From a virus, in IMG/VR virus record IMGVR_UViG_3300033388_001715, positions 1-20,705 of that record: a stretch of DNA of 20,705 nucleotides; one strand, 5' to 3'. Every line of letters begins with the position of its first letter. Position 1 is the stretch's first letter. The translations under genes and the position numbers were made by a program. Positions 1 to 20,705 of this stretch are shown here, piece by piece. The notes under the pieces were generated by a model, which saw only the letters and a list, made by a program, of their open reading frames with translations, searched no databases and was not told the DNA's origin.

Positions 1-150
1 GCGAAAGCTATACGCGAATTATCAGAGGCGAATACAGATCAAGGCGATAGGGGAGTGCAGGAGTACAGGCGAGAGCAAAGAGCGATCTATTCATCCTTGT
101 ATGATTTAATTGAACGGTACAGAGGTTATAGAATAGGAAAAGACACATAA
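1..150 (+). CDS. 3' end of an unknown gene (5' part outside window)
   Basis: An open frame runs from the first base of the window to a TAA at 148-150 and gives 49 residues. The visible C-terminus is highly charged, rich in Arg, Glu, Asp and Tyr (for example DLIERYRGYRIGKDT), and looks helical. I do not recognise the family. The frame is open from base 1 with no need for a start, and the stop is followed at once by a structured intergenic region, which supports it being the true tail of a gene. Its TAA lies inside the left outer arm of the first attC-like palindrome (147-216). Function unknown. Confidence 0.6.
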   Translation, partial: AKAIRELSEANTDQGDRGVQEYRREQRAIYSSLYDLIERYRGYRIGKDT

Positions 151-216
151 CCTTTGCAATAAACAGCAAGGGAAGTTGGAACAACTGTACGCAGTCTGAT
201 TTGATTGCGTTGTTAT
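147..216. repeat. attC-like imperfect palindrome 1 (structured intergenic element)
   Basis: Outer arms ATAAC (147-151) and GTTAT (212-216) pair perfectly. After short spacers (152-155 and 209-211), GCAATAAACAG (156-166) pairs with 196-208, with two unpaired bases on the 3' arm (A199 and G203). Inside lies a smaller perfect hairpin, AGTTG/CAACT (174-178 and 182-186). This AAC/GTT core, short unpaired spacer and inner stem with bulged bases is the layout of integron attC sites. It is not a perfect match to the attC consensus, and the bulged bases are on the arm opposite to the usual one. Alternatives are an RNA structure or a terminator-like element. Confidence 0.4.
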
Positions 217-237
217 ATTACGATAGGGGATTGGAAA

Positions 238-351
238 GTGAAATTACCAGAAGAATTAAAGCCGGTATTAGCAAAGATTTTTACCGTTACTGATTTGGGT
301 GCAAATATTTATCATGAGGTCGTTTATCATGATGGTGAGAGCTGGAAATAG
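238..351 (+). CDS. Small 37-residue protein, unknown function (possibly truncated by frameshift)
   Basis: GTG start at 238 with a good ribosome binding site (AGGGGA, 225-230) seven bases upstream; TAG stop at 349-351. The product ends in a run with HEVVYHDGESWK, an acidic/aromatic pattern I associate loosely with small accessory phage proteins, but I cannot name a family. Directly after the stop, the +1 frame continues with a plausible sequence (SKGYGYSVGWQCFITRN, 350-403), so the gene may have been about 54 residues and lost its frame at the AAA-TAG junction. It is the only gene between the two attC-like palindromes. Too short for family assignment from sequence alone. Confidence 0.5.
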   Translation: MKLPEELKPVLAKIFTVTDLGANIYHEVVYHDGESWK

Positions 352-387
352 CAAAGGCTATGGCTACTCAGTGGGCTGGCAGTGCTT

Positions 388-442
388 TATAACAAGAAAT
401 TAATCGGCGCATCTTTTCGCGCCCGTTTAATGTAGTGTTATA
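388..442. repeat. attC-like imperfect palindrome 2 (structured intergenic element)
   Basis: Outer arms TATAACA (388-394) and TGTTATA (436-442) are perfectly complementary over 7 bp. Four-base unpaired spacers follow on both sides (AGAA 395-398 and GTAG 432-435). The inner stem pairs ATTAATCGGCGC (399-410) with GCGCCCGTTTAAT (419-431), giving 11 pairs, one T/T mismatch and one extra C on the 3' arm. The loop is ATCTTTTC (411-418). The architecture closely parallels element 147-216, although the inner sequences differ; both end in TGTTATATT. It sits just upstream of the ribosome binding site of the next gene. There is no U-tract, so a standard intrinsic terminator is unlikely. Confidence 0.45.
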
Positions 443-457
443 TTTAAGGTGAGACAA

Positions 458-901
458 ATGAAGAAGAAAAGAAACAAGAAATACAACCCAGTGAAACACG
501 CTGAAATATGCACAGACTACGCACTCAAAAACCTACTAGTTGCATTTGTAACCAATGATGATAAGTGCATTCTAGTTAATAAGAAAGGCGAGCTAATACA
601 CTTATCAGAGCGCATATACAAAGCTATTGCCGAGGTTAAGCACAAGTGGTCGGTTTATATGGCGGCATTTGGTGAGCAGGTAGACGGAAAGCCTTACACT
701 AAATCAAGTGAGGTTATCACAAGTAACAGGCACTACCAGTATGAGCTAGTTGATACACTAAACAAAGAGCACAGCAAGTTAGTTAAGAATTTTAACAACG
801 AGCAATTCAGGGGAGCGGGTTGGCTAGCTAGTCCGGTGGGTGCTGAGTTAAGTGAGGAGCAGGCTTTTGATATATTCGAGAAGCTTGGGGCTTTTAAATA
901 G
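458..901 (+). CDS. Hypothetical phage protein, 147 residues
   Basis: I prefer ATG 458 over the in-frame GTG at 449 because the ribosome binding site AAGGTGAG (446-453) would overlap the GTG but lies five bases before the ATG. The product begins with a Lys/Arg-rich stretch (MKKKRNKKYNP), has a mixed alpha/beta middle with a short strand-turn-strand pattern (CILVNKKGELIHL) and ends with an acidic helix (ELSEEQAFDIFEKLGAFK). No membrane segment, signal peptide or known catalytic motif is visible. It begins the block of small unknown genes and is separated from the next gene by about 50 bases with no clear promoter. Function unknown. Confidence 0.75.
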   Translation: MKKKRNKKYNPVKHAEICTDYALKNLLVAFVTNDDKCILVNKKGELIHLSERIYKAIAEVKHKWSVYMAAFGEQVDGKPYTKSSEVITSNRHYQYELVDTLNKEHSKLVKNFNNEQFRGAGWLASPVGAELSEEQAFDIFEKLGAFK

Positions 902-4452: not shown

Positions 4453-4506
4453 ATGGGTAAATCTAAAACGCCACCAAAACCAAAGAAACCAACGAAGCGC
4501 AAGTAA
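4453..4506 (+). CDS. Micro-ORF: 17-residue basic Lys/Pro peptide
   Basis: ATG 4453 has GGAG (4443-4446) six bases upstream and encodes MGKSKTPPKPKKPTKRK before TAA 4504-4506. The stop overlaps the start of the next gene in a TAATG arrangement, so ribosomes terminating here can restart on the membrane protein gene. Together with the ORFs at 3390 and 17000 it forms a set of very short basic Pro/Lys/Gln-rich frames with good binding sites. It may be a coupling leader or a real peptide. Confidence 0.45.
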   Translation: MGKSKTPPKPKKPTKRK

Positions 4507-4967
4507 TGAAACTAGCCTTTGCACTGTGTGTGAGTCTCATCTTTGAGGCTCTAACATATCATCAATCAATCGACTTCGTATCAAATAACATAAACTTTGC
4601 TTTCGGGCTGTCTCTCCCGCAATCTGCTATAATAACCACAGCAATAGTTGCGCTTGTAAAACTTGTTGTTGTATGTGCTTGCATTGACATATCAAAAACA
4701 AAATCAAATCTACTTGTTATACTGCTTGCTATGTGCGCCCTGTTTGACTGCTTCTTAATCACCTTGTTTTTAAATAATAGTATGTATGCTATATTATTTA
4801 ATATTAGTGAGATTTTTGGCGATGTTTATAGGGCTATCGAGGTTGTTTGTATTGTGAGTATTTTATTTGATGCTATTCATGTTCTGTTTTTTAGTGATTC
4901 TATACCCAGTTCTCGCCGTGATAGCGATAAAGCTAGCCGAGGTATTTGTGTGGGTGATAAAGTATGA
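4506..4967 (+). CDS. Four-helix membrane protein, unknown, in lysis block
   Basis: The 153-residue product has hydrophobic stretches near residues 3-18, 41-60, 68-90 and 108-130, then a polar tail (SDSIPSSRRDSDKASRGICV). It is coupled to the 17-residue ORF upstream (TAATG) and overlaps the next gene by ATGA (4964-4967). Its position after the 3TM holin suggests a second holin-like or other membrane-acting lysis component, but no named family is recognised. The last 100 bases overlap a second open frame (4870-5109) that is also hydrophobic, so this stretch may encode two proteins. Confidence 0.65.
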   Translation: MKLAFALCVSLIFEALTYHQSIDFVSNNINFAFGLSLPQSAIITTAIVALVKLVVVCACIDISKTKSNLLVILLAMCALFDCFLITLFLNNSMYAILFNISEIFGDVYRAIEVVCIVSILFDAIHVLFFSDSIPSSRRDSDKASRGICVGDKV

Positions 4968-5787: not shown

Positions 5788-7473
5788 ATGGCTTTACAAT
5801 TTGATGGTACGGGTTATGTGCCTATCCCAACTTGGACAGAGACGGGTGACTTTGATATACATATACCGAGCTTTACGTATATAGATAACGGTGGGACTTT
5901 ACTTGGTGATGTCAATACTAGTGACAGCTTTATACAATTATTAAGCGCTGGCAAAATTCGACTAAAAGTGGCGGGAACCCAGGGTGATGTTAGTGGCCTT
6001 ATAGTCGGGCAGGAGTATGAAGGGCGCTTTACCCGTGTTGGGACAGTTGTTACCAATGAGATCGTGGGTGTTGGCACTAACGTAAAAAGTTCAGCCTTGC
6101 CTGTGACTTTCAATGCTTTCGGTTCTGGCAATAACTTTCAGTCGAAGTATTTAGGTGTAATTAACAGCTCGGTAGTGGTACAAGGTGACAGTAACAACAC
6201 TAGAACCTATGATTTTATACAGCCAATAGGGTCTTCTTCGCTGCCAGATATAACGGACGGTCAAGATGGGACTTTGACAGGATTTACAACAGGCGGGTTC
6301 ATTGGTGGCACTGAAGGGATCTCAATTGACACGCTTGACGGGTTCCCAGCAACGCATAATTTCTGCAAGCAAAGAGATGTTAACAACGAGGTCACTATAA
6401 CTGTAGCAGGCTCAACAACTGGCACAGCTACAACGGTTGAATATCAGCTTGATGATGGACCTTGGCTGACTCTCGACCCTGCACCTGCTGCTGATTTGTT
6501 TAGTGGTGACATAACCTTTTCTGGTCAGTACGATTTAACAGTTCGATTGAGTAATGACCCAATAGCCACGGACAACGTGTTAAGAATAACCTCGGCAGCT
6601 TGTATAGCGGTTTGGTGGCAATCTAACGCAGCCGGGCGAGGGGATAACCTTCAAACAGTTACCCCGATAGATGACAACCCAGTGCCAATTATGCACAGGT
6701 TTGGGGATTTTGAGGTATTAACTGACGCAGTTGGTACTGATGGTTCGGCGGCTGGCTCAATGTGGCCATTGATAGCACAAATGTATAGCGATATAGGCAT
6801 ACCAGTGTGCATAGGAAATGTAGCTGTAGGCGGCACTAGTATAACTCAGTGGCAACCCGCGGGGGCTAACTACCTAAACATAGCAGCATTTAATACTGCT
6901 TGCCAAGGGCTAGAGTTTTCAACTAGCATCGGTGGCGAAACTGATACTGATAACGGTATGTCTACAAACGACATGATAACAAACCTAACAACTACGTTGA
7001 CAGCTATTAATACAGATTTCGGTGTTGATCATTTTTTGTGTTACTTTCCAGTTGGCACAAATACAGGGACACCTCAAAATATTGCCAACATGAGAGCGGC
7101 TTTCGATAGTGTTATAGCTAATAACTCATTTGCAAGAAATGGTGGTGATTTATCAGTTATTGATCTAACTGGTGGCGATCAACTGCACCTCAAGACAGAC
7201 TCACATTTAGAGCAGGCTGGTGATATACAATACGCAGCATACAACAGCTCAATGCTCGATATAACAACTACGGGCGTGCCAGATGGTACATATGATTCAG
7301 TGATGTGGGATGAGGGTAGAAATATCGTGTTTAATGGCACTGTTAATGTCACTGGTGACAATCTAAGTGTAATGGTAAACACGCCCACGTTAGGGGAAAC
7401 TATATGGGGTGACGCTTACGACCCACTTGGCGCCGACACTGATGGCATGAGAATAAAAGGCACGACATCATGA
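5788..7473 (+). CDS. LamG-like plus SGNH-hydrolase (carbohydrate esterase-type) protein, probable tail or receptor protein
   Basis: ATG 5788 follows AGGGGTT. The 561-residue product opens with a beta-rich LamG/concanavalin-like domain (about 1-165: FTYIDNGGTLLGD, GKIRLKVAG, FNAFGSGNNF). A beta linker follows, then an SGNH-hydrolase domain (about 270-490): block I WQSNAAGRG (Ser279 nucleophile), block II GNVAVGGTSITQW (343-355), a GGETDT segment (382-387) and a C-terminal DQLHLKTDSHLEQAG (464-478) that supplies the Asp/His. A small beta domain ends the protein. SGNH enzymes of the sialate-O-acetylesterase type remove acetyl groups from surface glycans, so the likely role is modifying host polysaccharide at adsorption. 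It overlaps the next gene by ATGA. Confidence 0.75.
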   Translation: MALQFDGTGYVPIPTWTETGDFDIHIPSFTYIDNGGTLLGDVNTSDSFIQLLSAGKIRLKVAGTQGDVSGLIVGQEYEGRFTRVGTVVTNEIVGVGTNVKSSALPVTFNAFGSGNNFQSKYLGVINSSVVVQGDSNNTRTYDFIQPIGSSSLPDITDGQDGTLTGFTTGGFIGGTEGISIDTLDGFPATHNFCKQRDVNNEVTITVAGSTTGTATTVEYQLDDGPWLTLDPAPAADLFSGDITFSGQYDLTVRLSNDPIATDNVLRITSAACIAVWWQSNAAGRGDNLQTVTPIDDNPVPIMHRFGDFEVLTDAVGTDGSAAGSMWPLIAQMYSDIGIPVCIGNVAVGGTSITQWQPAGANYLNIAAFNTACQGLEFSTSIGGETDTDNGMSTNDMITNLTTTLTAINTDFGVDHFLCYFPVGTNTGTPQNIANMRAAFDSVIANNSFARNGGDLSVIDLTGGDQLHLKTDSHLEQAGDIQYAAYNSSMLDITTTGVPDGTYDSVMWDEGRNIVFNGTVNVTGDNLSVMVNTPTLGETIWGDAYDPLGADTDGMRIKGTTS

Positions 7474-17343: not shown

Positions 17344-18272
17344 ACCAACCTACACTACAAAGAACGGCTGTTGATATAGTAAAGAAAGCACTTAGATTGC
17401 TAGGTGTGATTGATGCTGAATTATCACTTAATGCCGTTGATAGAGAGCAGGGTATTGAAACACTCAATGATATGGTTAAGAGTTGGCAGCAGCAAGGCTT
17501 TCATCTTTGGACTATTAGCGAGGCTGTTTTATTTCTTCAGCAAGGGCAAGAAAAATACAAGCTTGGCAATGACTGCAAAAACGCAATCACAGACGATTAC
17601 ACGCTTGATTCTGTTACTTCTGATTATGTGCCTGCCTCACTATTGATTGAAGTTGCTGATAGTGCAATCTATACAATGAGTGAAACTATACTAATCACAC
17701 TTGATAACGGGCTTAAGTTTGAAACCACTGTTACAGGGTTTGGTATTGGTTCTATTTTAATTGCAGATGAGCCAACGGATACAGTAAGCAGTGGTAATGA
17801 TATATTTCTAAATGTTGAATACATCAATAGGCCAATGAGCATAATCGACACTAGGTTTAGAGAATCAAATACCCGCGAAGACATTCCCACTTATGAGTGG
17901 GCAAGAACAGATTATTTTGAACAGCCAGATAAAACAAGCCAAGGCACTGTAACGTGCTGGTACTACTCTCCGCAATTAACATGCGGCGACCTGTATGTGT
18001 GGCAAGCACCATCGTCTAACAATCAGCAATTAAGAATGACATACGTTAGACCAACAGAGATAACGCCCGAGAACGGTGACAATCCTGATTTTCCTAGTGA
18101 ATGGTTTTTAACGCTATCTTATAACTTAGCTTTATATTTAGCTGATGAGTACACAGTTACAGACAGTAAGTTCCAGCGAGTTCAAATGCAAGCCATGCAA
18201 TTGTTGGAGTCTGCGAAAGGCTTTGATAATGAAGACACTTATATACAATTGAATCCGGACCACACACGATGA
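17340..18272 (+). CDS. Head-to-tail adaptor, P22 gp4-like
   Basis: The 310-residue product starts with the helical core typical of P22 gp4-type proteins (TAVDIVKKALRLLGVIDAEL, then DREQGIETLNDMVKSWQQQG). A beta-rich part follows that is longer than in P22 gp4 (166 residues): about 75-170 looks like an inserted beta domain. The characteristic segments are RPMSIIDTRFRESNTREDIP, YFEQPDKTSQGTVTCWYYSP, LRMTYVRPTE and a C-terminal helix after DFPSEWFLTLSYNLALYLAD. It would bind below the portal as a ring and carry the gp10-like protein. ATG 17340 is in an ATGA overlap with the previous gene, and its own stop overlaps the next start. Confidence 0.82.
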   Translation: MNQPTLQRTAVDIVKKALRLLGVIDAELSLNAVDREQGIETLNDMVKSWQQQGFHLWTISEAVLFLQQGQEKYKLGNDCKNAITDDYTLDSVTSDYVPASLLIEVADSAIYTMSETILITLDNGLKFETTVTGFGIGSILIADEPTDTVSSGNDIFLNVEYINRPMSIIDTRFRESNTREDIPTYEWARTDYFEQPDKTSQGTVTCWYYSPQLTCGDLYVWQAPSSNNQQLRMTYVRPTEITPENGDNPDFPSEWFLTLSYNLALYLADEYTVTDSKFQRVQMQAMQLLESAKGFDNEDTYIQLNPDHTR

Positions 18273-20417: not shown

Positions 20418-20705
20418 ATGGGTGCAGCAGCAATACCACTGGCACTAGCTGGCGCAAGCGTTGCGGGTTCAGTTTATTCAGCAAAGAAACAAAGTGACGC
20501 AGCAAAGAAGCAGCAGGCAAGCCTAGAGAAATCACAATCTCAATCAAGGGCTGATGCCGAGCGTGGCAAGTTGGAGCTTCGCGAAATGTACGGCGATGCA
20601 TTGTGGACAATTGAAGCAATGACGCCTGAAATAATAGCCCAGTTACAAAACGGCCAGTTGACAACAGAATCTTATTTGCAAAACTATACCAGCGAAGCAA
20701 ATAGA
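20418..20705 (+). CDS. Start of a DNA-ejection protein (P22 gp7-like position), cut by window end
   Basis: ATG 20418 has AAGAGGG (20405-20411) upstream, and the frame is open through the last base (96 codons visible). The N-terminus is Ala/Gly-rich (MGAAAIPLALAGASVAGSVY), followed by a charged coiled helix (AKKQSDAAKKQQASLEKSQS, then RADAERGKLELREMYGD). This is common in internal virion proteins injected with the DNA. P22 has gp7, gp20 and gp16 here; gp7 is cleaved near its N-terminus. The assignment rests on position, composition and the hydrophobic N-terminal segment. Confidence 0.65.
   Translation, partial: MGAAAIPLALAGASVAGSVYSAKKQSDAAKKQQASLEKSQSQSRADAERGKLELREMYGDALWTIEAMTPEIIAQLQNGQLTTESYLQNYTSEANR

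Follow-up and report, generated by a model that had tools for sequence, protein, structure and literature searches.

The region between positions 145 and 443 of the window (the whole 20,705-nt stretch analyzed here, from a virus record of 20.7 kb that includes terminase and capsid genes) probably belongs to an attC cassette array without an integrase (CALIN), carried by a tailed phage and recombined in trans by the integron integrase (IntI) of the host; the use of IntI is inferred, and no recombination data exist for these sites. Two palindromes, site 1 (ACATAAC..GTTATAT) and site 2 (TTATAAC..GTTATAT), both with TGTTATATT at their right end, flank a 37-codon ORF. An earlier note, made from the sequence alone, had described both palindromes, together with an inner stem of about 11 pairs and unpaired bases on the right arm, and all of this held, the palindromes lying where it had placed them. 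Specifically, the inner stem of site 1 (GCAAT/AAA/CAG) forms 11 pairs and leaves two bases of the right arm (C and T) unpaired, and that of site 2 (ATTAA.CGG.CGC) carries one additional G on the right arm, its irregularities being this extra base and one mismatch. A strict palindrome scan skipped both sites because of these bulges, and the criteria were then relaxed to a stem with bulges enclosed by complementary TAAC/GTTA boxes, with shuffled windows as the control. As only 0.32 such structures occurred per shuffled window, a pair within about 320 bp is very unlikely by chance (expected approximately 0.0016 times). The palindromes are genuine and exceed the chance expectation.

Features of the attC array and adjoining genes at the start of the window (positions refer to the window)
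Feature	Position	Strand	Remarks
Upstream gene, end	1–150	+	Open frame to the TAA stop at 148–150, which falls within the left box of site 1
attC site 1	145–218	-	28.9 bits, E = 7.5e-5 (covariance model, minus strand; default filters, 200-kb search); unpaired bases spaced 5-1-3-1-3
Site 1 boxes	Functional core 145–151; outer partner 212–218	-	Core GTTATGT on the minus strand; directed against the genes
Inferred mobile cassette (site 1 + 37-codon gene)	151–392	-	Inferred crossovers 150/151 to 392/393, G/TT on the minus strand
37-codon cassette gene	238–351	+	GTG start; phrog_23756, E = 2.6e-10
attC site 2	387–443	-	Polarity from unpaired base and breakpoint; the covariance model alone favors the plus strand
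Site 2 boxes	Core 387–393; outer partner 437–443	-	Covariance model 20.0 bits, plus strand; homology with contig G001 from 389 downstream
147-residue gene, phrog_5434 (unknown function)	458–901	+	Site 2 kept ahead of it in contig G001

The attC identity of the palindromes was examined with a covariance model of 15 attC sites of known polarity, which was home-made rather than taken from IntegronFinder. It was trained on nine sites of a Vibrio anguillarum integron, five of a Shewanella integron and CALIN, and one of phage TJE1, that is, solely on other attC sites, with those of the window excluded. The two palindromes ranked first and second within the window, and in unfiltered searches site 2 scored 20.0 bits (E = 0.0025) and site 1 scored 16.0 bits (E = 0.034). 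When applied to phage PH101, which carries the array of Qi et al., the model recovered four sites of 39–43 bits. In bacterial attC sites, the stem consists of blocks of 5, 3, and 3 pairs, with one unpaired base of the left arm between successive blocks. The window sites show this 5-1-3-1-3 spacing on the right arm, which becomes the left arm when the reverse strand is read, so that the attC plan is found on the other strand, with 7-nt boxes, spacers of 3–4 nt, and left-arm unpaired bases breaking the stem. On the minus strand, site 1 has the core GTTATGT and site 2 the core GTTATAA, and both depart from an exact GTTRRRY.

The earlier note had held this departure from GTTRRRY, and the position of the bulges on the wrong arm, against an attC identity. 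The letters were right, but boxes such as GTTATGT, GTTATAT, and GTTATGC are normal among Vibrio and Shewanella integron sites, and the first objection fails; the second also fails, as the bulges reflect a reversed polarity, in line with the note's own remark that the sites would face the opposite way. Among the checks it had set, the covariance-model search matched both sites, and folding as free single-stranded DNA supported only one of them: the minimum-energy fold of site 2 is the attC fold (z about -3), whereas that of site 1 does not have the attC shape. We conclude that the palindromes are most likely genuine integron-type attC sites, reversed relative to the phage genes; their recombination by an integrase is inferred, in the absence of assay data. 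Weaker matches of the model in the window were rejected as plain hairpins within genes; one of these, at 18014–18051, is a small perfect hairpin (GTCTAACAAT..CGTTAGAC) in a coding region, which scored 14 bits and is probably a chance occurrence. A phage-specific covariance model was also dropped, because the site subfamilies change register in the alignment.

The unpaired-base spacing of bacterial attC sites on the reverse strand means that both sites face against the phage genes, and the usual bacterial arrangement, in which genes run with their attC, is absent from the window. For site 1, the covariance model also calls the minus strand. For site 2, it calls the plus strand owing to the spacer sequence, and here the antisense polarity, which we regard as shown, rests on the unpaired bases and the breakpoint, with which the model disagrees. 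The cassette unit of approximately 225 bp (212–437) drawn in the earlier note presumed normal polarity and failed; the corrected unit, consisting of site 1 and the gene, is 242 bp long (about 151–392). Its crossover positions are inferred from the cassette differences in relatives and have not been shown for the window cassette itself. Stop codons within a core box, as seen in the upstream gene, are typical of such arrays. A search for relatives of this upstream 49-codon fragment found none.

Related contigs indicated how such units may be exchanged. In contig G001 (locus L003), the counterpart of site 2 lies ahead of a gene whose product is 77% identical to the 147-residue protein, but the upstream neighbor differs, being a 136-residue protein that is itself preceded by another attC. 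Homology of the window to G001 begins with the left box of site 2 (position 389) and extends downstream, indicating that site 2 travels with the downstream gene and that a cassette, read in the gene direction, consists of an attC and the gene that follows it. In a third relative of this gene (L004, 69% identity), no site precedes the gene. Two more contigs, G008 and G009, were found by a pattern scan. The window and G009 are 87–91% identical over approximately 14.5 kb, mostly in structural genes, and the interval between ninB and ninG in G009 holds five small genes interspersed with four clear attC sites; at the same location, G008 contains one clear attC site and two small genes. Because G001 and G008 were obtained from the same sample and have a 127-bp identical end in common, they appear to represent a single phage population. 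In G001, an attC is joined to gene 65, whereas G008 has gene 57 and another attC between this same attC and gene 65. On one side, G001 matches G008 over its first 58 bases; on the other, the identity returns exactly at GTTATGT, which places the crossover interval at GTTAT. This one-cassette difference is the outcome expected of the excision or insertion of an integron cassette, with the caveats that the evidence comes from contigs, not reads, and that G001 has only the first site on that side.

In a more distant phage group (L043, L044, and L045), a near-identical site and downstream gene are preceded by three different upstream genes, and the sequences diverge at the TAAC box. When all pairs of similar sites were compared, far-reaching homology was found only on the 5′ side of the attC in five of the five informative pairs, and ended no more than 3 nt from the core box; the sixth pair (L048/L129) is a single sequence throughout and is uninformative. 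Junction-precise cassette differences are therefore shown in the relatives, which satisfy the criterion for an integron cassette (a mobile gene plus attC, with a G/TT crossover); this was not shown for the window cassette. The cassette-like reading in the earlier note, which had set the search of related phages as a further check, is thus supported both by the model match and by the occurrence of the same arms beside different genes. Three other relatives found through NinG (L040–L042) had no such site, and a narrower loop-pattern scan returned no contigs beyond those known. Several minor observations concern these loci. A TnpB-like transposon gene, identified by eye, lies at 639–1995 of L045, immediately after the attC and before the gene that follows it in L043 and L044. 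One attC is 96% identical between contig G002 (L011, 1168–1227) and G008 (20574–20634) in different gene surroundings, and the structural genes of these two contigs are unrelated despite the common site. The viral contig L162 contains two copies of a site (1654–1708 and 4505–4559), with at least 350 bp of the 5′ side, that are 85% identical and appear to represent a duplicated, diverging cassette.

An alternative reading of these data is that the hairpins are RNA elements, such as translation insulators, processing sites, or weak terminators, and that the turnover is ordinary phage mosaicism, in which phage recombination proteins join DNA at short repeats. In its favor, the hairpins lie between co-transcribed genes and, in both divergent arms, keep a constant orientation with respect to transcription; the phages encode NinB and NinG, and a recognized integrase is absent; and similar sites are common to otherwise different phages. 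However, homologous recombination at a 60-bp hairpin should break anywhere or keep either flank, whereas the observed breaks fall at one box and linkage is kept only on the 5′ side of the attC. Moreover, the pattern of unpaired bases is that of attC, and an Rfam search found no structured-RNA match for the palindromes. We consider this explanation, including the pair of RNA elements that the earlier note had offered as an alternative, unlikely.

To what extent the inverted arrangement applies to viruses was surveyed from an orientation-blind pattern scan of IMG/VR, which yielded at least 120 stretches. The survey set consisted of sites with model scores of at least 25 bits, after the removal of recognized duplicate contigs other than L048/L129, and comprised 133 sites at 75 loci. 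Of the ORFs flanking the viral sites, 173 ran opposite to the attC and 64 in the same direction, whereas the same treatment of 30 gammaproteobacterial loci, each the best match of its genome, gave 7 opposite and 77 in the same direction. By locus, the viruses were classified as 45 opposite, 12 same, and 18 mixed, and the bacteria as 0, 24, and 6, respectively (Fisher's exact test on unmixed loci only, p = 5e-12). Stop codons located in a box followed the same trend (viruses: 55 opposite, 4 same; bacteria: 1 opposite, 20 same). In G001, the inversion tracks the gene direction on both divergent arms. The sites of PH101 are antisense to its annotated genes, and MW202573 and P12002L also look reversed in a bulge scan; TJE1 has the normal direction. 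The survey is limited by greedy ORF calling, a model biased toward marine types, the presence of some related contigs, many fragments, and the use of only the best match per genome on the bacterial side. With the exceptions of the 12 normal and 18 mixed loci, genes directed against the attC are the prevailing arrangement of the phage-borne sites surveyed. The PH101 array (L017) also includes an unannotated 82-codon ORF at 27466–27714 that is oriented like the attC sites and extends into the tail of one of the annotated antisense genes, and this cassette may hold two opposed genes.

The cargo of the window cassette belongs to a phage protein family. The 37-codon protein aligns only with residues 50–84 of the 109-residue family phrog_23756, and its homologs, detected with tblastn, occur in jumbo phages with 50–58% identity (an example being Pectobacterium phage CBB); the gene is possibly a truncated copy of a family member. 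As a member of a phage family, it looks like phage rather than bacterial DNA. This bears on the view that phages passively picked up bacterial integron cassettes, of which the sites would be what remains, with an accidental direction and an inert array. The sites are plainly of the bacterial integron type, and fragments of chromosomal integrons have been found in phages (PMC9892861). Nevertheless, the membership of the cargo in a phage protein family, the strong direction bias opposite to that of bacteria, and the cassette difference within one phage population make this view very unlikely.

Clusters of attC in phages have already been published: CALINs or attC sites were reported in Pseudoalteromonas phage PH101, Tetrasphaera phage TJE1, and Polaribacter phage P12002L (Qi et al. 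2023, PMC9892861). Like the window, these are attC clusters in tailed phages that lack an integron integrase and have small genes of unknown function between the sites. However, the PH101 array was termed typical, without discussion of gene direction relative to attC, and the antisense genes of the window family and most viral loci, and the cassette exchange between relatives, are not part of that account. In the literature found, which did not extend to preprints or most subscription papers, we saw no description of inverted polarity as a prevailing rule, of members of a phage population that differ by a cassette with precise junctions, or of repeated cassette exchange among related phages. 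The sedentary chromosomal integrons of Vibrio and Shewanella resemble the phage arrays in their boxes, spacers, unpaired bases, single small gene per cassette, and crossover at the GTT box. They differ in that their genes run with the attC (77 of 84 flanks) and their arrays begin at intI and attI, whereas phage genes run against the attC and no intI was found.

No PF00589 tyrosine recombinase was detected in the window or in contigs G001, G002, G008, and G009. The window record, which is a fragment, thus satisfies the criterion for a CALIN (two attC sites approximately 240 bp apart without PF00589), and the criterion for a complete integron fails for it and the four related contigs. Among 44 further records with such sites, 34 had no PF00589, and the other 10 had no integron integrase above the cut-off. 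The absence of a tyrosine recombinase is shown for the window and the four related contigs; the action of a host integron integrase in trans is probable, but is inferred. By analogy with IntI1, which recombined PH101 attC in Escherichia coli at five of six tested sites (PMC9892861), host IntI is the simplest source of the enzyme, although neither the host nor its integrase has been identified; a genome-contig scan for the host returned only distant Gilliamella relatives. Alternatively, an unrecognized recombinase dedicated to these sites could be encoded by the phages or by satellites sharing their hosts, which would amount to the phage-specific cassette system considered in the earlier note. 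Two observations speak for this possibility: neither the window family nor 34 of the 44 other records has a recognized tyrosine recombinase, and some site subfamilies recur only among these phages. On the other hand, the sites fit the integron attC model, comparable PH101 sites are used by IntI1, and most of the contigs are fragments, so the absence of a recombinase proves little. A dedicated system is considered highly unlikely, and the sites are better read as ordinary attC in reverse.

Under the preferred reading of a host IntI acting in trans, every phage gene runs antisense to the attC of its cassette, which in the direction of transcription reads attC and then gene. The integrase would recombine the folded bottom strand of the attC, here identical with the sense strand of the gene, between the G and TT of the GTTATNN box, with the outcome that single small phage genes would be gained, lost, or swapped between conserved phage genes. 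The inverted bottom strand is the non-template strand of transcription and, if replication and transcription are co-directional, would be the lagging-strand template; it would then be exposed as a single strand during phage replication and transcription. In bacterial chromosomal integrons, in contrast, the bottom strand lies on the leading-strand template, and inversion of the V. cholerae array strongly raises excision (PMC11023631). The phage arrays resemble that inverted superintegron in having bottom strands on the lagging-strand template, subject to the same co-directionality, but the whole V. cholerae array was inverted experimentally and at a cost, whereas each phage cassette is reversed in nature. 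Exposure of the recombinogenic strand is the likeliest reason for the inversion, although this is inferred; a neutral alternative, that phage cassettes form a pool in which expression from Pc, the integron promoter, was never under selection, remains possible. A bolder reading, for and against which we see equal grounds, is that phages keep their own inverted-polarity cassette pool, separate from bacterial integrons, and rely on the host integron integrase to shuffle their small accessory genes, with the bottom strand placed on the sense strand exposed by replication and transcription; such inverted genes would be silent behind Pc in bacterial integrons.

These arrays may offer a site-specific route for the fast turnover of small phage genes that is tied to the host integron integrase, and infection of an integron-bearing cell is predicted to be able to reshuffle phage accessory genes. 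They also suggest a testable rule, in which bacterial cassettes run with their attC and phage cassettes mostly against it, and which would allow phage cassettes to be recognized in metagenomes and inside bacterial integrons. With regard to the phage itself, no DNA similarity of the window to named phages was found. Outside the array, a gene at 5788–7473 of the window contains a sialic-acid-specific acetylesterase (SASA) domain, and its product is possibly a tail protein that acts on a host surface sugar.
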